From Elusimicrobiota bacterium (GTDB taxonomy: Bacteria; Elusimicrobiota; Elusimicrobia; UBA1565; UBA9628): DNA of 64,000 nucleotides. The translations under genes were made by a program, and so were the position numbers. Under the pieces are notes generated by a model. The model had not been told where the DNA came from and ran no database searches. It was given only the letters and a program-made list of their open reading frames with translations. Every line of letters begins with the position of its first letter. Positions within the stretch are counted from its first letter, which is position 1. This document shows, piece by piece, positions 177 to 52,761 of this stretch. The stretch covers positions 1 to 64,000 of the forward strand of contig JACPFR010000025.1 of the NCBI GenBank assembly GCA_016182905.1, read 5' to 3'.

Positions 177-201
177 CCCCACGGCGCGGCTTCATAACGG
201 G

Positions 202-207
202 TAAAAT
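202..207 (+). promoter_or_regulatory. -10 element of a predicted leaderless promoter
   Basis: TAAAAT ends 6 bases before the GTG start at 214. No Shine-Dalgarno sequence lies between them, so transcription should start at or next to the GTG. No good -35 is visible. Confidence 0.5.
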
Positions 208-213
208 CTCAAC

Positions 214-1017
214 GTGACCAGCAAAAAAGCCGGAGCCGTGCACCTGCGCGACTGGGGCGGGCCGGGCGCGCCGCTCCTCCTGACCCACGGCATGGCCGCG
301 CACACGCACTGGTGGGACGCCGTCGTCCCCCGCTGGAAGGGCGTCTTCCACGCCGCCGCGCTCGACTTCCGCGGCCACGGCGACAGCGACTGGCTGTCGA
401 GCGGCGAGCCGTACGTGTCGCCGCGCTGGGTCGAGGACATCGAGACCGCGCGCAAGGCCCTGGGCTGGGAGCGCTTCATCCTCGTCGGCCACTCGATGGG
501 CGCGCGCATCGCCCTCGACTACGCCGAGCGCCACGGCGAGCGCCTGCGCGGAGTCTGCGCGATCGACTTCCTGCCCGAGTTCTACGAGTCGCGCACGCGC
601 ACCCACGAGAAGGTCCGCTCGCGGCCGCAGCCCGTCTACGCCGACGAGGAGACGATGCTCGCCAAGTTCCGCCTCCAGCCGCCCGGGACTTTGCTCGACG
701 AGCGGGCCCTCCGCGAGCTGGGACGCCACGGGGTGAAGAAGACCGCCGCGGGCTGGTCCTGGAAGTTCGACTGGCGCTCGTTCCTCTTCCCGTACGGCCC
801 GGTCTGGGAGCAGCTGCCGAGGGTCGCCGTGGACGCGCTGATCGTGCGCGGCGAGCACAGCACGATCATGACCCGCGAGGTCCTGGACAAGGTCGTCGCC
901 GCGCTGCCGCGCGGCCGCGGCGCCGAGATCGCCGGGGCGCATCACCACATCCCCCTCGACAAGCCCGCGGACCTGGCGGCCGCCGTCTCCGCCTGGGCGT
1001 CGTCCCTGCAGGCGTGA
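214..1017 (+). CDS. alpha/beta-fold hydrolase
   Basis: A 267-residue single-domain alpha/beta hydrolase with no signal peptide, so it is cytoplasmic. LLLTHGM (about residues 21-27) is the oxyanion strand, VGHSMG (91-96) is the nucleophile elbow with Ser94, and AGAHHHIP near the C-terminus supplies the histidine. The acid position reads RGEHS, so Glu may stand where Asp is usual. The GTG start is chosen because a TAAAAT hexamer ends 6 bases upstream. The stop overlaps the ATG of the MOSC gene (GTGATG), so the two are translationally coupled. Substrate cannot be told from sequence. Confidence 0.85.
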   Translation: MTSKKAGAVHLRDWGGPGAPLLLTHGMAAHTHWWDAVVPRWKGVFHAAALDFRGHGDSDWLSSGEPYVSPRWVEDIETARKALGWERFILVGHSMGARIALDYAERHGERLRGVCAIDFLPEFYESRTRTHEKVRSRPQPVYADEETMLAKFRLQPPGTLLDERALRELGRHGVKKTAAGWSWKFDWRSFLFPYGPVWEQLPRVAVDALIVRGEHSTIMTREVLDKVVAALPRGRGAEIAGAHHHIPLDKPADLAAAVSAWASSLQA

Positions 1018-1658
1018 TGGAGATCGCCTCGATCTGCGTCGGCCCCGCCCGCAGGATCCCCTGGCGCGGGGAGACCGTCGCCACCGCCATCTTCAAGGCC
1101 CCGGTCGAGGAAGCCCGCGTCGCGGCGCTCGGCCTCGAGGGCGACGAGCAGGCGGACCCGGCCGTGCACGGCGGCCCGGGCAAGGCGGTGTACGCGTACT
1201 CGGCCGATCACTATCCATGGTGGAAGCAGCGGCTGCCGGGCAGGGAGCTGGCCTTCGGCGCCTTCGGCGAGAACCTGACCGTCTCGGGCTTCGACGACGA
1301 GGACGCCTGCCTCGGGGACGCCTACCTCGCCGGCTCGGCGCTGCTGATCGCGGCGCAGCCGCGCCTGCCCTGCGCGAAGCTGGGCCTGCGCTTCGACGAC
1401 CCGGGCATGGTCAAGCTCTTCGCGCAAAGCCTCCGCCTCGGCGTCTATTTCCGCGTCGCGAGGCCCGGACGCGTGCGCCGCGGGGACGCGTTCGAGAAGG
1501 TCTCCGAGCACGCGCTCCGCCTCCCGGTCCCGGAGCTCGCCCGGCTGTACTTCGACCCCGGGCTCACGGCCGAGAAGGCCCGGCCCGCGCTCGAGCATCC
1601 CGCGCTCGAAGACAACTGGCGCGCGATGCTGGCCAAGCGCCTGCGCGCCGGGGCTTAA
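1017..1658 (+). CDS. MOSC-domain protein (YiiM-like)
   Basis: A 213-residue protein made of a MOSC domain (molybdenum cofactor sulfurase C-terminal). The early AVHGGPGKAVYAY segment, GAFGENLTVSG, and QPRLPCAKLGLRF with the conserved cysteine match the YiiM group, which in E. coli detoxifies N-hydroxylated bases and amidoximes with a Mo cofactor. The C-terminal three-helix region (ELARLYFDPGL...) is also YiiM-like, and the length is close to E. coli YiiM. It starts inside the stop codon of the hydrolase upstream. Confidence 0.85.
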   Translation: MEIASICVGPARRIPWRGETVATAIFKAPVEEARVAALGLEGDEQADPAVHGGPGKAVYAYSADHYPWWKQRLPGRELAFGAFGENLTVSGFDDEDACLGDAYLAGSALLIAAQPRLPCAKLGLRFDDPGMVKLFAQSLRLGVYFRVARPGRVRRGDAFEKVSEHALRLPVPELARLYFDPGLTAEKARPALEHPALEDNWRAMLAKRLRAGA

Positions 1659-1663
1659 AAAGA

Positions 1664-1671
1664 GATAATAT
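1664..1671 (+). promoter_or_regulatory. -10 element (GATAAT/TAATAT) before a GTG start
   Basis: GATAATAT lies 3-5 bases before the GTG at 1675 and after the MOSC stop, with no Shine-Dalgarno sequence. This fits a leaderless transcript. Confidence 0.5.
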
Positions 1672-1674
1672 CGC

Positions 1675-2898
1675 GTGGACCCCGCCGAACGCTCGCGCCT
1701 GGCCTCGCTTCGCGCGCTGAACATACTGGACACGCTCCCCGAGGAGCGCTTCGACCGGATCACGCGCCTGACCCAGAGGACCTTCGGCGCGCCGATCGCC
1801 CTCATCACGTTCATCGACGAGAACCGCGTCTGGTTCAAGTCCCGCATGGGCCTGGCCGAGGCCGAGATGCCGCGCAACGGCTCCTTCTGCGAGGAGACCT
1901 TGGCCTGCGACGGGCTGATGATCGTCCCGGACGCGTCGAAGGATCCGCGTTACTCCGCCCATCCGCTCGTCGCGGGCGGGCCGAAGATACGCTTCTACGC
2001 CGGCCAGCCTCTCCAGGGCCCGGACGGGAAGGTCGTCGGCACCTTGTCCTTGCTCGACGTCGCGCCGCGCGACCTGGATATCGAGCAGCGCCGGGCCCTG
2101 CGCGACCTGGCCGGCATGGTCCAGGACCAGCTCGCCGGCTCCGGCGACAAGGAAGCGCCGCCCGACGAGCACGCGCGCCTGCTCGCCCGCCTGCGCCTGA
2201 CGCCGGAGCACGCGACGGGGCGGCGCCGGATCCAGCTCGCTTTCCTCGCGATCGCGGTCGCGCTGCTCGCGGTCACGGCGTTCTCCATGCGCCTGGCCGG
2301 CAAGCTCTCGGCCGACGCGGACCGCATCGAGGCCCTCATGGCCGCCCCCGAGCGGCCGTCGGCCTTCGAGGAGATGAAGGCGCCCCTCGACCGCCTGCGT
2401 TCGACCGCGCGCTTCTTCCGGATCGCCGTCGGCGTGCGCGGGCTCATGGGGCTGACCTTGGTGTTCTCCGTCCTCGTCATCTTCGACCGTCACATGGACG
2501 GGCGCCTCTCGGCCATGGCCGCCATCGAGCTCGACCGCACGCGCCTCCAGGCGGTCATCGACGCCATCGGCGACGGCGTCGTCGTCGCCGACGCGGGCGG
2601 GCGCTTCACCGTGTTCAATCCCGCCGCCGAGCGCATCCTCGGCCTCGGCATGGTCGACGACCCCGATCACTCGGACCGCTTCTACCTCTCTTTCTTCGAG
2701 GACGACGGCGCCGCGTGCCTCCCCGAGAGGCATCCCTTGAAGCGCGCGATCGCGGGGGAGACCGTGCGCGGCGAAAGGCTGGTCGTGCGCAACGAGCGGC
2801 GCCCCGGCGGCGTCCAGGTCGGGATCACCGCCACGCCGGTCCGCGCGTTCGACGGGACGCCGGCGGGCGGCGTCATCATCTTCCGTGATCTGGCGTAG
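1675..2898 (+). CDS. GAF - two TM helices - PAS sensor protein without an output domain
   Basis: A 407-residue protein. Residues about 10-155 are a GAF domain of the type found at the N-terminus of sensor kinases (LNILDTLPEERFDRIT, then GAPIALITFIDENRVWFKS). Two hydrophobic helices follow at about 187-206 and 250-270, separated by a short predicted periplasmic loop. Residues about 290-400 are a PAS domain (IDAIGDGVVVADAGGRF...FNPAAERILG). The chain ends right after the PAS domain in IIFRDLA, where a kinase or GGDEF domain would normally begin; a stop follows and no output domain lies downstream. It may act through a partner or be a truncated sensor. The GTG start is supported by the -10 hexamer next to it. 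Confidence 0.8.
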   Translation: MDPAERSRLASLRALNILDTLPEERFDRITRLTQRTFGAPIALITFIDENRVWFKSRMGLAEAEMPRNGSFCEETLACDGLMIVPDASKDPRYSAHPLVAGGPKIRFYAGQPLQGPDGKVVGTLSLLDVAPRDLDIEQRRALRDLAGMVQDQLAGSGDKEAPPDEHARLLARLRLTPEHATGRRRIQLAFLAIAVALLAVTAFSMRLAGKLSADADRIEALMAAPERPSAFEEMKAPLDRLRSTARFFRIAVGVRGLMGLTLVFSVLVIFDRHMDGRLSAMAAIELDRTRLQAVIDAIGDGVVVADAGGRFTVFNPAAERILGLGMVDDPDHSDRFYLSFFEDDGAACLPERHPLKRAIAGETVRGERLVVRNERRPGGVQVGITATPVRAFDGTPAGGVIIFRDLA

Positions 2899-2919
2899 AC
2901 CCGCCGCGCGCCGTTTCCT

Positions 2920-3372
2920 ATGAACGACCGAAAGTACTGCTTCGTCGCCACCGGCTACCTGGTCCGCGACGGCAAGACCCTCCTCCTCAAGCACAAGAAG
3001 CTCGGGATGTGGCTGCCGCCGGGCGGCCACATCGAGGACGGCGAGACGACCGACGAGGGCGTCCTGCGCGAGGTGCGCGAGGAGACCGGCCTCGAGGCCG
3101 ACTTCATCGCTCCGCCGCGCGCCCCGGTGATGCGCGGCGGCCGGGTCGAGTCCCTGCACGAGCCCCAGCGCGTGCAGATCGAGGAGATCCCCGGCCACAA
3201 CCACCACATCGACTTCATCTACTACCTCCGCGCCCGCCCCGGCGAGCACGCCCACCGCCCGGACGAGAGCGACGACATCCGCTGGCACTCGCACGAGGAC
3301 CTGGGCCTGCCCCACGTCCCCGACGAGGTCCGGGAGTCGGGCCGCGACGCCATCCGCCTCGTCGGCGGCTGA
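2920..3372 (+). CDS. NUDIX hydrolase
   Basis: A 150-residue single-domain protein with a complete Nudix box at about residues 38-60: G-x5-E-x7-REVREETGL, read here from GGHIEDGE through REVREETGL. The family hydrolyses nucleoside diphosphates linked to another moiety using Mg2+ bound by the box glutamates. The substrate is not evident. The start ATG lies 21 bases after the stop of the sensor gene. No Shine-Dalgarno sequence is obvious. Confidence 0.9.
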   Translation: MNDRKYCFVATGYLVRDGKTLLLKHKKLGMWLPPGGHIEDGETTDEGVLREVREETGLEADFIAPPRAPVMRGGRVESLHEPQRVQIEEIPGHNHHIDFIYYLRARPGEHAHRPDESDDIRWHSHEDLGLPHVPDEVRESGRDAIRLVGG

Positions 3373-3385
3373 GCCCCCGCCTCCC

Positions 3386-3414
3386 TTGACAGGGATGACT
3401 CCCCGGTCTACACT
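3386..3414 (+). promoter_or_regulatory. sigma70-type promoter TTGACA-17-TACACT
   Basis: A perfect -35 TTGACA (3386-3391), a 17-base spacer and TACACT (3409-3414). The ATG at 3436 follows with GGAGG at 3426-3430, giving an ordinary leader of about 15 bases. Confidence 0.8.
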
Positions 3415-3435
3415 GCCCCAGCAACGGAGGAGATC

Positions 3436-3996
3436 ATGACCCGACAGTTCACCGTCGTTCTCGGACTCGGATTCGCTCTCGCGGCCGCCCTGGGCGGCCC
3501 CGCGCTCGCCCAGCAGCCGAAGGAGGCCGGCGCCTCGGAGAAATGCCTCGGCGGAGCCTCGGGCGACAAATGCGGCGGGGCGGCCGCCGCCCAGGAGCAC
3601 GACCTGCGGGTCGTGTTCGACAAGGAAGGCGCCAAGGGCGAGATCAAGTGCAAGAAAGGCAAGCTCAAGGACGGGAAGGTGGAGTTCGAGAAATGCCTGC
3701 AGGACAAGCTCGACAAGTACGAGGACGTCGCGGTCCTGAAGAAGATCGTCGCGAAGGAGCAGCTCGCCAAGCTTCCCGCCAAGAAGAAGCGGCTGGCCAA
3801 GAAGCTCGCCTTCTATGACTCCGCCCGCAAGGAGCTGAAGGGTAAGCTCGCCGAGATGGGCGAGGCCAAGAAGGAAGACATCGAGTACAAGAAGGCGGAA
3901 GGCGCGCTCGAGAAGATCGACAAGGAGTTCGACAAATCGCTCGCCGAGTGCGCGAAGGAAGACAAGGCCGACTTCGCCTGCCCGACGAAGGACTAG
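3436..3996 (+). CDS. secreted Lys-rich protein of unknown function
   Basis: A 186-residue protein with a clear signal peptide: positive n-region MTRQ, hydrophobic core, cleavage near PALAQQ. The mature part opens with paired cysteines (KCLGG, DKCGG), later has EIKCKK and KCLQDK, and ends in a long charged Lys/Glu-rich region (about 90-180) predicted to be helical or coiled. I recognise no family. It has its own consensus promoter and a GGAGG ribosome site. Its TAG stop overlaps by 4 bases the stop of the convergent gene (shared CTAG at 3993-3996). Confidence 0.8.
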   Translation: MTRQFTVVLGLGFALAAALGGPALAQQPKEAGASEKCLGGASGDKCGGAAAAQEHDLRVVFDKEGAKGEIKCKKGKLKDGKVEFEKCLQDKLDKYEDVAVLKKIVAKEQLAKLPAKKKRLAKKLAFYDSARKELKGKLAEMGEAKKEDIEYKKAEGALEKIDKEFDKSLAECAKEDKADFACPTKD

Positions 3997-5426
3997 TTCC
4001 TGCTCAAGGCCTTGAGCAGCAGCGCCGCCGCGGCGACGACGGCCAAGACGTAGACTCCGGTCTTCCGTTCCGCCGTTCTCCGCTCCTCGGGCGGGGGCGG
4101 CGGAGCGGAGGGCGCGGCCGAGGCGCGCGGCGAGGGAGAGCCCGGCGCTCCCGCTGAGACCGGCGAGACGCCCTCCGCCGCCGAGGCCGGCTCCCGCGCG
4201 ACGGAAGGCGCATGGACCGCCTCCGGGGCGGAGCCTCCCGCGGACCCGCCCAGGCCGCGGGCCAGCTCCCCCATCCGGGCGAGCAAGGAGGCCAAAGACG
4301 GAGAGCGGCGCCCGCCGGCTCCGAGCTTTTCCGCGGCCAGGTCCTCGGCCGCGGCGAGGCGCCGGTCCTCCTCGGTGTACTCCCCGAACCCCTCGTCCTC
4401 GCCGTCGATCTCCTCCTGGGCGGCGCTCCAGACCGCGTCGAGGTCCTCCGGCGGGACGTCCTGGCCCTTGCGGTAGGAGCCTTCAGCGGCGTGCGGGTTG
4501 CAGGTCCCCGACAGGCCGCTGCATGAGGCGGACCATTGGAAATCCCGGGCCTGCGCGGTCATGCCGATGTCCTTGAAGGCGGTGGCGCGGAGCTCCGGCC
4601 GCGCCGCGAAATCGCGCTTGAGGTCGGCGAACTTCTCTCGCGGGAGCACCGCGAAGAAGTCCGGACGCCGCACGAGCGCGGCCGGCTCCGCGCGCAGCGC
4701 CTCGCGGAGACGGTCGAGCTCGGGCTCCGTCGCGGGGGTCCCGTCCGCGCGCTGGATGGCGGGTTCGCCGCGCGGGCCCGCGCCGACCTTGAGCCCCTGC
4801 TCGCGGAAGGTCGCGGCGTAGCCCGTTCGCGCCGCCAACGCCAGCTCCGGGACGCTCCGCGTCCCGGCCGGCGCGGCGGCCGTCCCCGGCTGGGAAGGGC
4901 CGGCGCTCCCCGCGGGCGGCTCTTCGGCCGGCAGGAAGCTCCGGCGCATGGTGTCCGCCGCTCCGGCCGCCCGGCGCATCGTCCGCGCGCGCCGCTCTCC
5001 GGCGTCCCGGCGCAGGACCTCGGTCCGCTCGGCGCTGGGCGGAGGGCCCGCCGAAGGCGGCGCCGCGGAGGCCTCCGCGGGCATCAGCGCGGCCGACGGC
5101 TCCCCGGGGACCGGCGGCGGCGCGGCGGCGGCCGGGTCGGGCGCGCCGGCCTCGGCCTCGATGGCCGAGATCACTTCGTTCTCCTTATTATTCTTGACTT
5201 TTTTCTTCTCGAGAAGATAGGGCTTGCAGTCGCCGGTCTTCTTGCAGGCGCTGAATTTCTTCTTCAGCATCGTCGCGTATTCATCGTCCAGGGGCTTGAC
5301 GTCCACCCCGGCGGCGTCGAGCGTCTTACGCGGCTCATCGAGCTTCCCCTCGTCGAGCTGTCCCCGGGCCGGAGAAGCGGCCAAAGCGGCGGCCACGAGG
5401 GCGGCGGCGAGTCGCGGAAGGCTCAT
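3993..5426 (-). CDS. secreted Ala/Pro-rich protein with C-terminal membrane segment
   Basis: A 477-residue protein with an N-terminal signal peptide (MSLPRLAAALVAAALAASPARG) and a C-terminal hydrophobic segment (VYVLAVVAAAALLLKAL) followed by SRN, so it is exported and tail-anchored. After the signal there is a small Cys-containing domain (FSACKKTGDCKPYLLE), a low-complexity Ala/Pro linker, a more ordered middle (about 195-330) with SCSGLSGTCNP, and a second Pro/Ala-rich linker before the anchor. No family recognised. The start is firm: TTGACA-17-TAAACT ends 6 bases before the ATG and there is no Shine-Dalgarno sequence. Confidence 0.75.
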   Translation of the reverse strand: MSLPRLAAALVAAALAASPARGQLDEGKLDEPRKTLDAAGVDVKPLDDEYATMLKKKFSACKKTGDCKPYLLEKKKVKNNKENEVISAIEAEAGAPDPAAAAPPPVPGEPSAALMPAEASAAPPSAGPPPSAERTEVLRRDAGERRARTMRRAAGAADTMRRSFLPAEEPPAGSAGPSQPGTAAAPAGTRSVPELALAARTGYAATFREQGLKVGAGPRGEPAIQRADGTPATEPELDRLREALRAEPAALVRRPDFFAVLPREKFADLKRDFAARPELRATAFKDIGMTAQARDFQWSASCSGLSGTCNPHAAEGSYRKGQDVPPEDLDAVWSAAQEEIDGEDEGFGEYTEEDRRLAAAEDLAAEKLGAGGRRSPSLASLLARMGELARGLGGSAGGSAPEAVHAPSVAREPASAAEGVSPVSAGAPGSPSPRASAAPSAPPPPPEERRTAERKTGVYVLAVVAAAALLLKALSRN

Positions 5427-5432
5427 GTCCAG

Positions 5433-5461
5433 AGTTTAACGGCCGGATCGGCCGGTGTCAA
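5433..5461 (-). promoter_or_regulatory. consensus leaderless promoter TTGACA-17-TAAACT-6-ATG
   Basis: On the minus strand a perfect -35 (5456-5461), exactly 17 bases, then TAAACT (5433-5438) and 6 bases (CTGGAC) to the ATG at 5426. This is the cleanest example of the leaderless arrangement in the window. Confidence 0.85.
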
Positions 5462-5487
5462 TCGCCCGGCCCCTCGACGAGGAATCC

Positions 5488-5516
5488 TTGACCTACGAGG
5501 GGAAATCATGTTGAAT
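5488..5516 (+). promoter_or_regulatory. candidate promoter TTGACC-17-TTGAAT
   Basis: TTGACC (5488-5493), 17 bases and TTGAAT (5511-5516) upstream of the SWIB gene, leaving a leader of roughly 50 bases. The -10 is weak. Confidence 0.45.
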
Positions 5517-5573
5517 TAAGCCTTACGCCGGGTAAAGCCCTTCGAGGCGCCGGCTTCAAGGAGATAAATCACC

Positions 5574-5831
5574 ATGGCGAAGAAGGCGAACGCGGCGTTC
5601 ATGAAGCCCCTCACCCCCAGCGACAAGCTCGCTGAGATCGTCGGCAGCAAGCCCCTCCCCCGCACCGAGGTCGTCAAGAAGCTCTGGGCGTACATCAAGA
5701 AGAACAACCTGCAGGACAAGAAGAACAAGCGCAACATCAACGCCGACGCGGCGCTGAAGGCCGTGTTCGCCGGCAAGGCGACGGTCAACATGTTCGAGAT
5801 GACCAAGCTCGTCTCCAAGCACCTGAGCTAA
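5574..5831 (+). CDS. SWIB/MDM2-domain protein
   Basis: An 85-residue basic protein that is almost entirely a SWIB domain (about residues 8-83): FMKPLTPSDKLAEIVG, LPRTEVVKKLWAYIKKNNLQ and NMFEMTKLVSKHL. SWIB domains are best known from eukaryotic chromatin remodelling subunits. Free-standing bacterial copies occur in Chlamydiae and other phyla and are thought to bind DNA or nucleoid proteins, but their role is not settled. AAGGAG lies 10 bases before the ATG, and a strong terminator follows, so it is a monocistronic unit probably expressed at a fair level. Confidence 0.9.
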   Translation: MAKKANAAFMKPLTPSDKLAEIVGSKPLPRTEVVKKLWAYIKKNNLQDKKNKRNINADAALKAVFAGKATVNMFEMTKLVSKHLS

Positions 5832-5865
5832 GTCTTTGACCGTCCGGGGAGACCCGGAAAGTCGG

Positions 5866-5899
5866 AAGGCCCCCGCGCGAGCGGGGGCCTTCTTCGTTT
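5866..5899 (+). terminator. intrinsic terminator of the SWIB gene
   Basis: Perfect 11-bp stem AAGGCCCCCGC (5866-5876) / GCGGGGGCCTT (5881-5891) with a GCGA tetraloop, followed by CTTCGTTTT. Confidence 0.9.
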
Positions 5900-5948
5900 T
5901 ACGGATTTGATAAACTGGCGCAGGTGGGCGAAAAAAAACTCGGGGGTC

Positions 5949-6025
5949 TGGTGGCGCGTACGGGATTTGAACCCGTGATCTTCGCCTTGAGAGGGCGACG
6001 TCCTAGGCCGCTAGACGAACGCGCC
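5949..6025 (-). tRNA. tRNA-Glu (CTC)
   Basis: Read on the minus strand the acceptor stem is GGCGCGT (6025-6019) pairing with ACGCGCC, followed by an encoded A-CCA end at 5949. The T-arm contains GGGTTCAAATCCC. The anticodon stem TCGCC/GGCGA closes the loop CTCTCAA, giving anticodon CTC for the GAG codon that dominates in this GC-rich genome. All four arms pair well. Confidence 0.95.
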
Positions 6026-6063
6026 ACCAGAACCCCGAGAACGGAAGGTGCCCCATCTTACCA

Positions 6064-6465
6064 ATTCCGACGAGGCTGAGGCAACTGTGCATCGTCGCGG
6101 CGCTGGCCGCGGCGGCGGCGTCCTGCGGGACCCTCGAGAAGGCCTTCGCCCCGGCCCCCAACCCCTGGCCCATCCCGCGCGAGAGCCGCGTGCGCCGGGA
6201 CGGCCGCCTCCTGCGGGTGTACGGCGCTTCCCTCAAGAGCCGGGCGGACGCCGAGGCCGACGCGAAGCGGTCCTTCGAGGCCTGGATGTGGAGCCTCGAC
6301 CTCGGAGACGACATCCCCGAGCGCAAGGCGCTGATCGACCGCATCGTGAACTCGAAAGCCGCCCTGCCGGTGCCGTCGCCGGTCCCGGAGAAATCCGGCT
6401 TCACGTCGATCATCGAGATCGACCTGCCGAGCCTCCAGAAGCGCCTCGGCACCCACTATGAGTGA
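6064..6465 (+). CDS. small putative lipoprotein, unknown function
   Basis: The frame carries a lipoprotein-like signal (RLRQLCIVAALAAAAASCGTL, lipidated Cys at AASC) followed by a soluble region with RLLRVYGASLKSRADAEA and SIIEIDLPSLQKRLG. No ATG/GTG/TTG precedes the signal in frame. The best candidates are ATT at 6064 or CTG at 6076; the first standard start is GTG at 6190, which would remove the signal. I give the ATT with reservation. The stop overlaps the next ATG by 8 bases (ATGAGTGA), so the gene is coupled to the S9 peptidase downstream. Family unknown. Confidence 0.55.
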   Translation: MPTRLRQLCIVAALAAAAASCGTLEKAFAPAPNPWPIPRESRVRRDGRLLRVYGASLKSRADAEADAKRSFEAWMWSLDLGDDIPERKALIDRIVNSKAALPVPSPVPEKSGFTSIIEIDLPSLQKRLGTHYE

Positions 6466-8257
6466 ACGCGTCCCGCGCGAGCTGCTGTTCGGCAACCCCG
6501 AGAAAGCCTCGCCGAAGATCTCCCCGAACGGCAGGCTCTGGGCCTATCTCGCCCCGGACGAGGGCGTCCTCAACATCTGGGCCGGCCCCGAGGGCGGCGA
6601 CGCGCGGCCCCTGACCAACGACCGCGGCCGCGGCATCCGCGTGTTCCTCTGGGCCGAGGATGAACGGTCGATCCTGTACGTCCAGGACCGCGACGGGGAC
6701 GAGAACTGGCATCTGTACCAGACCGACGTCGAGACCGGGGTCACCCGCGACCTGACTCCGTACCCGGGCGTTCAAGCCCAAATAGTCGCCACCGAGCCGC
6801 GTTTCCCGAACGAGATCCTCGTCGCGCTCAACGACCGCGACCCCAAGCTCCACGACGTCTGGCGTCTCGACCTCACGACCGGCGCGCGGACCCTGGAGGC
6901 GACGAACCCCGGCGACGCGATCGGCTGGCTGGCGGACCACGACTTCAAGATCGGCCTGCACAAGGCGACGACGCCCCAGGGCGGGACGGTCCTGCGCCTG
7001 CGCGACGGCGACGGCTGGAGGGACCTCCTGTCCTGCGGCCCGGACGACGCGCTCGGCGCCCACGGGTTTTCGCCCGACGGCGAGAACGTCTATATCGAGT
7101 CGAGCGTGGGCCGCGACACGACGGCCCTGCTCGAGGTCCCGCTGTCCGGCGGCCCGGCCAAGGTCCTGGCCGAGCACCCGGAGTCGGACCTGGGCTCGGT
7201 CCTGATCCACCCGCGCCGCTACCACGCCGAGGCGGCGTCCTTCGAGGTCGACCGCGTCACCTGGCGCGCGCTCGACCCCGCCGTGAAGACGGACATCGCC
7301 GCGATGGCCGCCCTGCAGGGCGAGGTCACCATCGTCTCGCGTAACGACGCGGACACGGTCTGGTACCTGCTCGTCAACAAGCCCGACAAGTCGCCCGCCT
7401 TCCTGCGCTGGAACCGGGTCGGCCGCGTCGCGACCCCGCTCTTCTCCACGCGCCCGAGGCTCGACGCCTACGCGCTCGCGCCGATGAAGCCGGTCAAATA
7501 CGCCGCGCGCGACGGCCGCGCGGTGCGCGGCTACCTGACGACGCCCGCGGGCGCCCCGGCCGGCAAGCTGCCTCTCGTCCTCCTGGTCCACGGCGGTCCC
7601 TGGGTCCGCGACCACTGGGGCTTCCACCCCGAGGCGCAGTGGCTCGCGAGCCTCGGCTACGCCTGCCTGCAGCTCAACTACCGCGGCTCCGCCGGCTTCG
7701 GCAAGGCGCACCTCCACGCGGGGGACCGCGAGTGGGGCGCCAAGATGCAGGACGACCTCACCGACGGCGTGGAGTGGGCGGTGTCGCAGGGCGTCGCCGA
7801 CCCGGGGCGCGTCGCGATCTACGGCGGCTCTTATGGCGGCTACGCCGCGCTCGCCGGGGCGGCGTTCACGCCCGACGTCTACAGGTGCGCGATCGACGTG
7901 GTCGGGCCCTCGAACCTGATCACGCTCATCCAGTCCATCCCGCCGTACTGGGCGCCGCTGAAGCGCACCTTCGACCTGCGCGTCGGCTCGATCGAGACGG
8001 AGGAGGACTTCTTGAAGTCCCGTTCCCCCTTGTTCCACGTCGACAAGATCGACATCCCGCTCTTGATCGCCCAGGGCGCGCACGACCCGCGCGTGAAGCA
8101 GGCCGAGTCGGAGCAGATCGTCGCGGCCCTGCGCGCGAAGGGCAAGCCCGTCGAGTACCTGCTCTATCCCGACGAGGGCCACGGCTTCGCCAGGCCCGCC
8201 AACCGCCTCGACTTCTACGCCAAGGCCGAAGCCTTCCTCGCCAAGCATCTGGCGTAG
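6458..8257 (+). CDS. S9 family peptidase (prolyl oligopeptidase/acylaminoacyl peptidase type)
   Basis: A 599-residue protein without a signal peptide. Residues about 15-330 form a beta-propeller gate with repeated strand motifs (GAHGFSPDGENVYI and similar). Residues about 345-599 are the hydrolase domain: oxyanion strand LLVHGGPW, nucleophile elbow GGSYGGY with Ser458, acid in AQGAHDPRVK (about Asp542) and His in DEGHGFARP (about 573). The family cleaves short peptides, often after proline or N-acylated residues. It is coupled to a small lipoprotein gene through an 8-base overlap. Confidence 0.92.
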   Translation: MSERVPRELLFGNPEKASPKISPNGRLWAYLAPDEGVLNIWAGPEGGDARPLTNDRGRGIRVFLWAEDERSILYVQDRDGDENWHLYQTDVETGVTRDLTPYPGVQAQIVATEPRFPNEILVALNDRDPKLHDVWRLDLTTGARTLEATNPGDAIGWLADHDFKIGLHKATTPQGGTVLRLRDGDGWRDLLSCGPDDALGAHGFSPDGENVYIESSVGRDTTALLEVPLSGGPAKVLAEHPESDLGSVLIHPRRYHAEAASFEVDRVTWRALDPAVKTDIAAMAALQGEVTIVSRNDADTVWYLLVNKPDKSPAFLRWNRVGRVATPLFSTRPRLDAYALAPMKPVKYAARDGRAVRGYLTTPAGAPAGKLPLVLLVHGGPWVRDHWGFHPEAQWLASLGYACLQLNYRGSAGFGKAHLHAGDREWGAKMQDDLTDGVEWAVSQGVADPGRVAIYGGSYGGYAALAGAAFTPDVYRCAIDVVGPSNLITLIQSIPPYWAPLKRTFDLRVGSIETEEDFLKSRSPLFHVDKIDIPLLIAQGAHDPRVKQAESEQIVAALRAKGKPVEYLLYPDEGHGFARPANRLDFYAKAEAFLAKHLA

Positions 8258-8351
8258 GCCTTTAGCACGAAAATAGGCCGGGCCCTACGCCTGGGCTTCG
8301 GTAGGCCTTCCGGTGCTGAATATCCCGTCGAGAACAACCTACCATGGAGGC

Positions 8352-8975
8352 ATGATCCCTTCCCCGCTCCGCCGGGCCCTGCTGCTCCTCGCCGTCGCCG
8401 CTTTCCTGATCACCCGCGCCGCGGCCCAGAACGCCGACGCCGCCTTCGCCTCCGCGCTCCGGGAGGGCGCTCCCTCCTTCGCGCGGATCGCGCAGTTCAA
8501 GGCCAAGCCCCGGAAGCCCGTCCCCCAGACGAAGGGTCCGAGCGCCTCCGAGGCCGTCTGGGCGAAGGTCCTCGAGACCGTCAAGCGCGACGGCAAGTAC
8601 AGGCCCGACAGCGCGTTCGCTCCCGGCTCGTTCTCCATCGAGGACACCGTGGGAGACCCGAAGGCGGACCACTCGACCCAGGGCATCTCGGTGTTCGGCA
8701 TGCTCAACGACGAGGAGCGGTTCGAGGCGCTGAGCGTGATGCTCGTCTTCAGGGATCACAAGCTCGACCCCAAGGACGGAAACTGGCACATCGAGCAGTG
8801 GCTCTTCCAGACCGACGTCTACGGCGAGGTCGCCGAGCTCGCCGCCGGCACGGTCATCAAGACCCAGGACGGCAAGGTCGTGGGGACGACGCGCAGCGCG
8901 ATCAGCCCCTCCGATCCCAAGGTCCAGGCTCGGTACGACGCGATGCTCGCGCACTGGGCCGAGCGGAAGCCTTAA
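8352..8975 (+). CDS. secreted protein of unknown function
   Basis: From the ATG at 8352 the protein has 207 residues and a good signal peptide (MIPSPLRRALLLLAVAAFLITRAAAQ). An in-frame GTG at 8313 would add 13 residues before the signal and is less likely. A TACCAT hexamer ends 6 bases before 8352 (8340-8345), matching the leaderless layout seen elsewhere, although the 6 bases happen to read GGAGGC. The mature part contains FGMLNDEERFEALSVMLVF and WHIEQWLFQTDVYGEVAEL. No family recognised. The protease gene follows after 11 bases, so the two probably form an operon. Confidence 0.75.
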   Translation: MIPSPLRRALLLLAVAAFLITRAAAQNADAAFASALREGAPSFARIAQFKAKPRKPVPQTKGPSASEAVWAKVLETVKRDGKYRPDSAFAPGSFSIEDTVGDPKADHSTQGISVFGMLNDEERFEALSVMLVFRDHKLDPKDGNWHIEQWLFQTDVYGEVAELAAGTVIKTQDGKVVGTTRSAISPSDPKVQARYDAMLAHWAERKP

Positions 8976-52328: not shown

Positions 52329-52340
52329 ATCAAGCAAGAC

Positions 52341-52365
52341 GACCCTCTGCGTTCCGCAGAGGGTC
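52341..52365 (-). terminator. hairpin ending the small-protein transcript
   Basis: GACCCTCTGCG, a 3-base loop and its exact complement (11-bp stem). On the minus strand it begins 3 bases after the stop of the 50-residue gene. No long T-run follows. Confidence 0.6.
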
Positions 52366-52367
52366 GC

Positions 52368-52520
52368 TTACTTCGTCATCGCGACGGCGAACCGCGCCAG
52401 CACGGTCGCGCGCCGCAGGTCCGGCTTGGGCCGGAGGTCGGTCGGGATCAGCGCCCGGCACGCCTCCAGCGCCACGTCGAAGGCCGTCACGGCCTTCTGC
52501 TTGCGGTGCTTCTTCCTCAC
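52368..52520 (-). CDS. small basic protein, 50 residues, unknown
   Basis: GTG 52520 to TAA 52368 encodes a 50-residue protein: a strongly basic start (MRKKHRKQKAV), then AFDVALEACRALIPTDLRPK and PDLRRATVLARFAVAMTK, predicted as two helices. It is too short to score by length, but an AAGGAGGTGATCC Shine-Dalgarno sequence (13 bases complementary to the 16S tail) sits 4 bases before the GTG (GGAGG to GTG 9 bases), and a hairpin follows the stop. A consensus promoter lies at 52734-52761. The sequence could bind RNA or DNA; no family is recognised. Confidence 0.65.
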   Translation of the reverse strand: MRKKHRKQKAVTAFDVALEACRALIPTDLRPKPDLRRATVLARFAVAMTK

Positions 52521-52523
52521 CTT

Positions 52524-52536
52524 GGATCACCTCCTT
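52524..52536 (-). promoter_or_regulatory. 13-base extended Shine-Dalgarno sequence
   Basis: AAGGAGGTGATCC is the full reverse complement of the canonical 16S rRNA 3' end (GGATCACCTCCTT). It decides the GTG start at 52520. Confidence 0.8.
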
Positions 52537-52548
52537 GCGTATTTCCCT

Positions 52549-52586
52549 GAAAACGAAGAGCCCCGGGCTCGCAGGCCCCGGGGCTC
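52549..52586 (-). terminator. intrinsic terminator inside the small-protein leader (attenuator candidate)
   Basis: On the minus strand GAGCCCCGGG, a 9-base loop, CCCGGGGCTC, then TTCGTTTTC. It lies between a 19-codon leader frame and the 50-residue gene. A second GAGCCCC at 52603-52609 could pair with the 3' arm and prevent the hairpin. Confidence 0.65.
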
Positions 52587-52612
52587 CCGCCGCGCGCGCC
52601 GAGGGGCTCGCG

Positions 52613-52672
52613 CTAGACGGGCGCCTCCGCGCCGCGGTACGATCCGGACCGGCTGGTCGATTCGATGTTCAT
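52613..52672 (-). CDS. possible leader peptide, 19 residues
   Basis: ATG 52672 to TAG 52613 encodes MNIESTSRSGSYRGAEAPV; the same frame is open from an upstream ATG at 52702 (29 residues), across a run of eight T. It lies at the head of a strong-promoter transcript and 26 bases before a terminator hairpin. The ribosome site (GGCGGAACG) is modest. It could be a leader peptide or a tiny product in its own right; coding is not proven. Confidence 0.35.
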   Translation of the reverse strand: MNIESTSRSGSYRGAEAPV

Positions 52673-52733
52673 CGTTCCGCCAAAAAAAAGGCCGCGATCC
52701 ATGGCGCGCCGCGCGCGCCCGTCGTGACACTGG

Positions 52734-52761
52734 AGTATAGCCGAAACCCTTGTTTTGTCAA
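52734..52761 (-). promoter_or_regulatory. consensus promoter TTGACA-16-TATACT
   Basis: A perfect -35 (52756-52761), 16 bases, TATACT (52734-52739). It drives the minus-strand leader and 50-residue gene, with a predicted start near 52727. It sits right after the esterase gene's stop. Confidence 0.8.

Follow-up and report, generated by a model that had tools for sequence, protein, structure and literature searches.

A putative uORF-controlled transcription attenuator ahead of an orphan small basic protein gene in the Elusimicrobiota

Introduction

In the Actinobacteria, translation of the upstream open reading frame (uORF) in the leader of whiB7/wblC favors a terminator, whereas its disruption favors an antiterminator and read-through, and the leader acts as a general translation sensor (PMC11550727). 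The duf1127-1 gene of Sinorhizobium meliloti, which codes for a small Arg-rich protein, has a leader with a uORF for 29 amino acids and premature termination, and is induced by translation inhibitors (PMC12218461). In Escherichia coli, the toiL uORF of topAI senses many ribosome-targeting antibiotics and acts through access to the ribosome-binding site, with Rho (PMC12121999). Translational stress in Anabaena switches on a silent operon of 26 tRNAs together with rtcB, and a slipin gene is among the de-repressed genes (PMC10272220). Furthermore, one report presents an RtcB-encoding RNA repair operon as regulated by damaged tRNAs (PMC7790460).

Here we describe a locus in a 64,000-nucleotide stretch of DNA (the window) from a 4.0-Mb Elusimicrobiota genome, for which the original prediction was an attenuation system that governs a small protein and is controlled by a peptide or a ligand. 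We infer from a comparison of related leaders that the locus is a uORF-mediated attenuator of the whiB7/wblC type. Within the open-access papers searched, it is apparently the first attenuator with such a logic in the Elusimicrobiota and the first to be proposed for an operon of a tRNA array and RtcB.

Results

An orphan small gene with a conserved upstream plan

The locus is flanked by an esterase gene (Pfam PF00756) on one side and a convergent adenosine-deaminase-like gene on the other. When the minus strand is read directly, all of the predicted elements are found where they had been placed, including the near-consensus promoter, the T8 run (52689-52682), the GC-rich terminator hairpin with its U-rich tail ahead of the gene and the hairpin after the gene (Table 1). 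The single tRNA gene within the window codes for tRNA-Glu(CTC) and is located at 5949-6025.

Table 1. Features of the small-gene locus, in the direction of transcription (window coordinates).
Feature	Position	Strand	Description
Sigma-70 promoter, TTGACA-16-TATACT	52734..52761	-	TTGACA 52761-52756, 16 nt, TATACT 52739-52734
T1, promoter-proximal hairpin with U8	52682..52728	-	GUCACG-(inner hairpin)-YGYGGC; terminator-like
Leader ORF, 19 codons	52613..52672	-	MNIESTSRSGSYRGAEAPV, then stop; same-place ORFs in other leaders
Putative antiterminator, 5' strand (region 2)	52616..52635	-	Within the last codons of the leader ORF
Hairpin C, from leader stop codon to T2	52592..52613 (approximate limits)	-	Same-place hairpin predicted in nearly all leaders, sequence unrelated
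Putative antiterminator, 3' strand	52571..52591	-	T2 5' arm and the nucleotides immediately before it
T2, intrinsic terminator	52550..52588	-	GGGAGCCCCGGGGCC...GAGCCCGGGGCTC; hairpin 52588-52558, U-rich tail to 52550
Shine-Dalgarno sequence	52524..52536	-	AAGGAGGTGATCC; complementary to the 16S rRNA 3' end
50-codon gene, GTG start	52368..52520	-	Orphan protein, basic (pI 11.3); helical hairpin predicted
Terminal hairpin	about 52340..52366	-	GACCCTCTGC-GGAAC-GCAGAGGGTC; between convergent genes; same-place hairpins in homologues

A six-frame search of whole genomes recovered the 50-codon gene from 10 of the 19 genomes of the genus, from one other genus of the family and from one other family of the order, which gives 11 homologues in the order besides that of the window; a marginal thirteenth match (G074) was left out of the count. 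The homologous contigs belong to Elusimicrobia MAGs, several of which are of groundwater origin. The frame is unbroken in every homologue, with a pN/pS ratio of 0.48, and judged by its sequence the gene is real. The neighboring genes vary among the genomes, and the small gene thus stands alone. Its DNA identity (91-97%) can be set against 74-89% for the adenosine deaminase gene and 81-88% for the esterase gene, and its synonymous divergence is low; extra constraint at the RNA level or high expression is perhaps behind this conservation.

Neither product of the locus had been recognized in the original prediction, and the 50-residue protein indeed has no relative in Pfam, NCBIfam, PHROGs or PDB, and no match to DUF1127 in Pfam. 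An AlphaFold model consists of two helices (pLDDT 87), and a fold search of PDB with this model gave no significant match, the fold being too simple to place. We also considered a phage or defence gene, an idea that was dropped for want of any viral relative, with no matches among viral contigs. As a guess from its regulation and its charge, the protein is possibly RNA- or ribosome-binding.

The order of sigma-70 promoter, T1, leader ORF, T2, strong Shine-Dalgarno sequence and gene is conserved in the relatives within the order, and promoter, terminator and Shine-Dalgarno sequence precede every homologue whose upstream region is not cut by a contig end. In a scan of 2 kb the promoter is the sole promoter-like site, with 11 of 12 matches where 0.1 sites were expected, and strong promoters of the form TTGAC-N14-GGCTATACT are generic in the genus (0 for the control pattern). 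The Shine-Dalgarno sequence, rightly predicted to be very strong, is a 13-nt match to the anti-Shine-Dalgarno sequence that occurs in exact form just twice in the 4-Mb genome.

A promoter-proximal hairpin shared by few genomes

The T1 hairpin begins a few nucleotides past the expected transcription start and consists, in the relatives, of GUCACG and CGUGGC on either side of an inner hairpin whose sequence varies, with a U-run at the end. It is canonical in the relatives but degenerate in the window, where it contains an A.C mismatch, and its folding energy compared to shuffled sequences has a z-score of about -3.3 to -4 in seven relatives and -0.21 in the window. The folding energy of the whole transcript is unremarkable (z -1.35). 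Among 341 genomes in the phylum, 5 contain the exact T1 motif, each time ahead of a small basic gene (0 for the reversed-pattern control); four of these genes are the 50-codon gene and the fifth codes for a different basic protein of 59 amino acids. Since T1 is located upstream of the leader ORF, it cannot be controlled by translation of the leader. T1 probably acts near the promoter as an extra terminator or pause site and thereby holds down basal expression, which is the least certain step of our model.

A leader ORF with an unconstrained peptide

Two starts had been predicted for the leader ORF, of which the shorter, giving 19 codons, is backed by the relatives, and the 29-codon start at 52702 is not. 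ORFs of 19-42 codons are located at the equivalent place in 10 other small-gene leaders (19-28 codons among the homologues of the 50-codon gene), and ORFs of 48-49 codons in three leaders of tRNA arrays, so that a short ORF lies between promoter and terminator in 11 leaders of small genes and 3 of arrays. The leader ORF is missing from three homologues (G052, G013, G005), whose leaders are probably simplified. The leader ORFs have weak Shine-Dalgarno sequences, with a U-run roughly 5-30 nt, mostly 9-16 nt, upstream of their start codons. The first codons are often rare for this GC-rich genome, but ordinary genes begin alike and we give this little weight.

Within the genus, the leader peptide is not under purifying selection for its amino acids (pN/pS 1.05), and the leader identity is 67-74%, as compared to the much higher identity of the small gene. 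The leader peptides contain no run of one codon, and no sequence is common to those of different families. Taken together, this makes it unlikely that a single amino acid is sensed, and amino-acid attenuation was dropped for lack of a regulatory codon run. A search of Rfam 15 gave sub-threshold chance matches only, with no riboswitch or known structured leader, and a search with leader DNA outside the homologous loci gave just short terminator-like matches. The leader ends can pair, as in a 6S-like RNA, but this candidate was rejected because the leader is short or missing in three homologues.

Complementarity between the end of the leader ORF and the terminator

The comparison of relatives lends good support to the original prediction of an attenuator of the small basic protein with mutually exclusive structures. 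The competitor it had named for the 3' arm of the terminator, GAGCCCC at 52603-52609, is present in the window and missing from all 13 other leaders compared, and is thus a feature of this genome only. A check for loss of the 50-codon frame or of the alternative pairings found both kept in the relatives. The conserved competitor is the stretch of the last approximately seven codons of the leader ORF, which is complementary to the 5' arm of T2. This arm starts 19-29 nt past the leader stop codon, without exception.

The pairing was spotted by eye and tested afterward. The duplex is GGCUCGG(a)GGC/GCCCCGGGCC in the genus, GGGCAG(a)GGGG/CCCCCUGCCC, CGGGCA(c)GGGG/CCCCUGCCCG and GGCGGG(a)GGGG/CCCCCCCGCC in a second gene family, and GCAUGGG/CCCAUGC in the tRNA-array leaders. 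The duplexes of leaders with their own arms have energies of -19 to -28 kcal/mol, and the cleanest cases contain a single bulge, a purine or C, at the equivalent place. Compared to dinucleotide shuffles of the ORF end, the duplex energies have p-values of 0.003-0.17, that of the window (0.15) being not significant.

In a more realistic test, the RNA was folded only as far as the T2 5' arm, mimicking the moment when this arm has just left the RNA polymerase. Pairing of the arm with region 2 reached 0.78 in the window, as compared to a mean of 0.12 for the shuffles, none of which in 100 attained the observed value, and 0.57-0.99 in the 10 other small-gene leaders. The observed pairing was attained by 0 of 100 shuffles in five relatives of the genus and by 1 in the sixth (G010), by 1-4 of 100 in the second gene family, by 0-7 of 100 in the array leaders and by 11 of 100 in G025. 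Thus, 13 of 14 leaders have more pairing than shuffles of the same composition at a level of 7 in 100 or better. When the footprint of a ribosome at the stop codon was masked, 10 of the 11 small-gene leaders lost the pairing, and addition of the 3' arm of T2 then allowed this terminator to fold; this simple mask failed to abolish the pairing in G025 and in two of the three array leaders. A predicted mutually exclusive antiterminator that a ribosome could mask is accordingly well developed in the small-gene leaders, and weaker in G025 and the array leaders.

Of the antiterminator cells in the genus, 92% are paired, with little covariation because the sequences are too similar. The argument for an antiterminator is instead based on the finding that unrelated sequences keep the complementarity. 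Full-length RNA at equilibrium favors T2 in nearly all leaders, which means that the switch must be kinetic.

The same type of leader on other genes

The 59-residue basic protein downstream of the fifth exact T1 match has homologues in two sister genomes with the same full plan. No homology to the 50-residue protein was detected, and a relationship between the two was rejected. In this orphan family of 56-59 residues (G047, G053, G045), the same leader type has an extra hairpin right before its Shine-Dalgarno sequence.

A slightly looser T1 pattern recovered a second locus in the genome of the window (contig C38) and loci in two relatives, in which promoter, T1, a leader ORF of 48-49 codons and T2 are followed by a tRNA gene array that is partly degenerate. 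At the locus in the genome of the window (G000:C38, about 178-4619), nine tRNA genes were found along with further degenerate tRNA-like segments, and after these a slipin/SPFH gene (Band_7, E 2e-29) and a gene for the RNA ligase RtcB (E 1e-127). With SPFH and RtcB genes downstream of a tRNA cluster, this locus has the composition of a tRNA array-slipin-RtcB RNA-repair operon. The array and its leader persist in G007 (C117), with a fragment of RtcB, and in G003 (C109), where RtcB is absent. Another family of the order also has slipin and RtcB genes together with a tRNA array (G055, C162, about 4516-8916), without a recognizable T1 leader, and the other RtcB loci inspected in the order have no tRNA array.

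Discussion

In our view, the locus is likely to be an attenuator of transcription under uORF control, through which impaired translation would switch on the 50-residue basic protein. Ribosomes that finish the leader ORF would cover the antiterminator strand while at the stop codon, T2 would fold and transcription would stop after about 180 nt. If ribosomes stall early or fail to load, owing to inhibition of translation or to shortage or damage of tRNAs, the antiterminator could seize the emerging 5' arm of T2, the RNA polymerase would read through and the small protein would be made at a high rate. T1 would act near the promoter, as a terminator that sets a basal level or as a pause. Our best guess is that the general status of translation is more likely to be the signal than the specific peptide or ligand originally proposed, because of the unconstrained leader peptide, the lack of a codon run and the lack of an Rfam riboswitch. 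The original observation was confirmed and an attenuator is the right kind of system, but the particular switch first put forward was wrong, and the signal probably so.

We also considered the possibility that the unit of T1, leader ORF and T2 is itself the gene, with short RNAs (about 45 nt for T1 and about 180 nt for T2) or the leader peptide acting in trans and the small gene read by leakage. Two terminator-like sites upstream of the gene and the occurrence of the leader before three unrelated downstream genes or arrays would suit such a unit, which is nevertheless improbable, given that the leader diverges fast relative to the small gene, that the peptide is unconstrained in the genus, that a 13-nt Shine-Dalgarno sequence follows T2 and that no RNA or peptide sequence is common between the families, internal complementarity being what persists. 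An ordinary constitutive small gene, with T2 and also T1 as weak terminators or elements of RNA stability and the leader ORF as incidental, also strikes us as unlikely. It would explain why the three homologues without a leader ORF retain one or two terminator-like hairpins, and GC-rich RNA does offer many alternative pairings, but the pairing of the ORF end with the T2 5' arm exceeds that of shuffles in nearly all leaders, with unrelated sequences at a constant position.

Likewise, termination could depend on the binding of the small basic protein itself, of some other protein or of a ligand to T1 or the leader RNA. The small size and the high pI of the protein, and the fact that T1, the best-conserved RNA motif, is beyond the control of the downstream leader ORF, are in line with autoregulation; we give it the lowest probability, since T1 and the leader are found as well in front of a tRNA array and of the gene for a non-homologous protein, so that the 50-residue protein is not the common ligand, and since Rfam contains no matching riboswitch. 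T1 itself may terminate at a basal level, cause a pause or stabilize the 5' end. The last of these roles, in which the hairpin and U-run serve as a stabilizer and as a U-rich (S1) ribosome entry site for the leader ORF and T2 is the sole terminator, is compatible with the attenuator model and would account for the U-run ahead of leader starts with poor Shine-Dalgarno sequences. We regard it as doubtful, although as a more serious candidate than the preceding three, because a GC-rich stem that abuts U5-U9 is a textbook intrinsic terminator and because G052 retains T1 without having a leader ORF.

If the attenuator model is correct, the occurrence of the same type of leader on the tRNA array with slipin and RtcB elsewhere in this genome suggests a small regulon for translation stress and RNA repair, of which the small basic protein would be one output. 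Such a target fits the sensing of translation status, in view of the stress induction of the trn operon and rtcB in Anabaena and the control of the RtcB operon by damaged tRNAs, and would give the attenuator an unexpected link to RNA repair. One hypothesis, which we put forward tentatively and at somewhat less than even confidence, is that the Elusimicrobiota have a dedicated regulon for translation damage that is controlled solely in cis, by a modular two-terminator attenuator with a leader ORF placed before unrelated effectors, namely an RNA-repair operon with reserve tRNAs and two or more families of tiny basic proteins that are unrelated to each other. If true, these protein families would be new factors in translation stress or RNA repair. 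On the attenuator model, the orphan small protein gains a regulatory context, a predicted condition for its expression, which is impaired translation, and a link to the operon of RNA repair and tRNA array.

Comparison with known systems

The closest likeness is to whiB7/wblC, with which the proposed attenuator would share the logic of uORF, intrinsic terminator and antiterminator, and the general mode of sensing. The target of that system is a transcription factor, whereas the targets here would be an orphan small basic protein and an operon with a tRNA array and RtcB; the phylum is different, no sequence relation is expected and there is an extra promoter-proximal hairpin with a U-run, T1 being an unusual addition to the plan of a uORF attenuator. 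The duf1127-1 leader resembles the locus in its uORF and in its downstream gene for a small basic or Arg-rich protein, and would share with it premature termination and induction upon inhibition of translation, but it has no intrinsic terminator, with Rho proposed instead, sensing takes place at the start of the uORF, and the protein described here is not a Pfam DUF1127 protein. With the attenuators of the trp, his and ilv type, the locus would share a leader ORF and an antiterminator and terminator with one common strand, but not the regulatory codon run, and its downstream genes are non-biosynthetic. Similarly, toiL is a uORF that serves as a sensor, but it does not act on an intrinsic terminator. 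Finally, the trn operon and TrcR regulon of Anabaena are the counterpart of the second locus in the genome of the window, with its tRNA array, slipin and rtcB. The Anabaena genes are controlled by a DNA-binding repressor and do not form one operon, whereas here a leader attenuator would stand ahead of the array, slipin and rtcB together.
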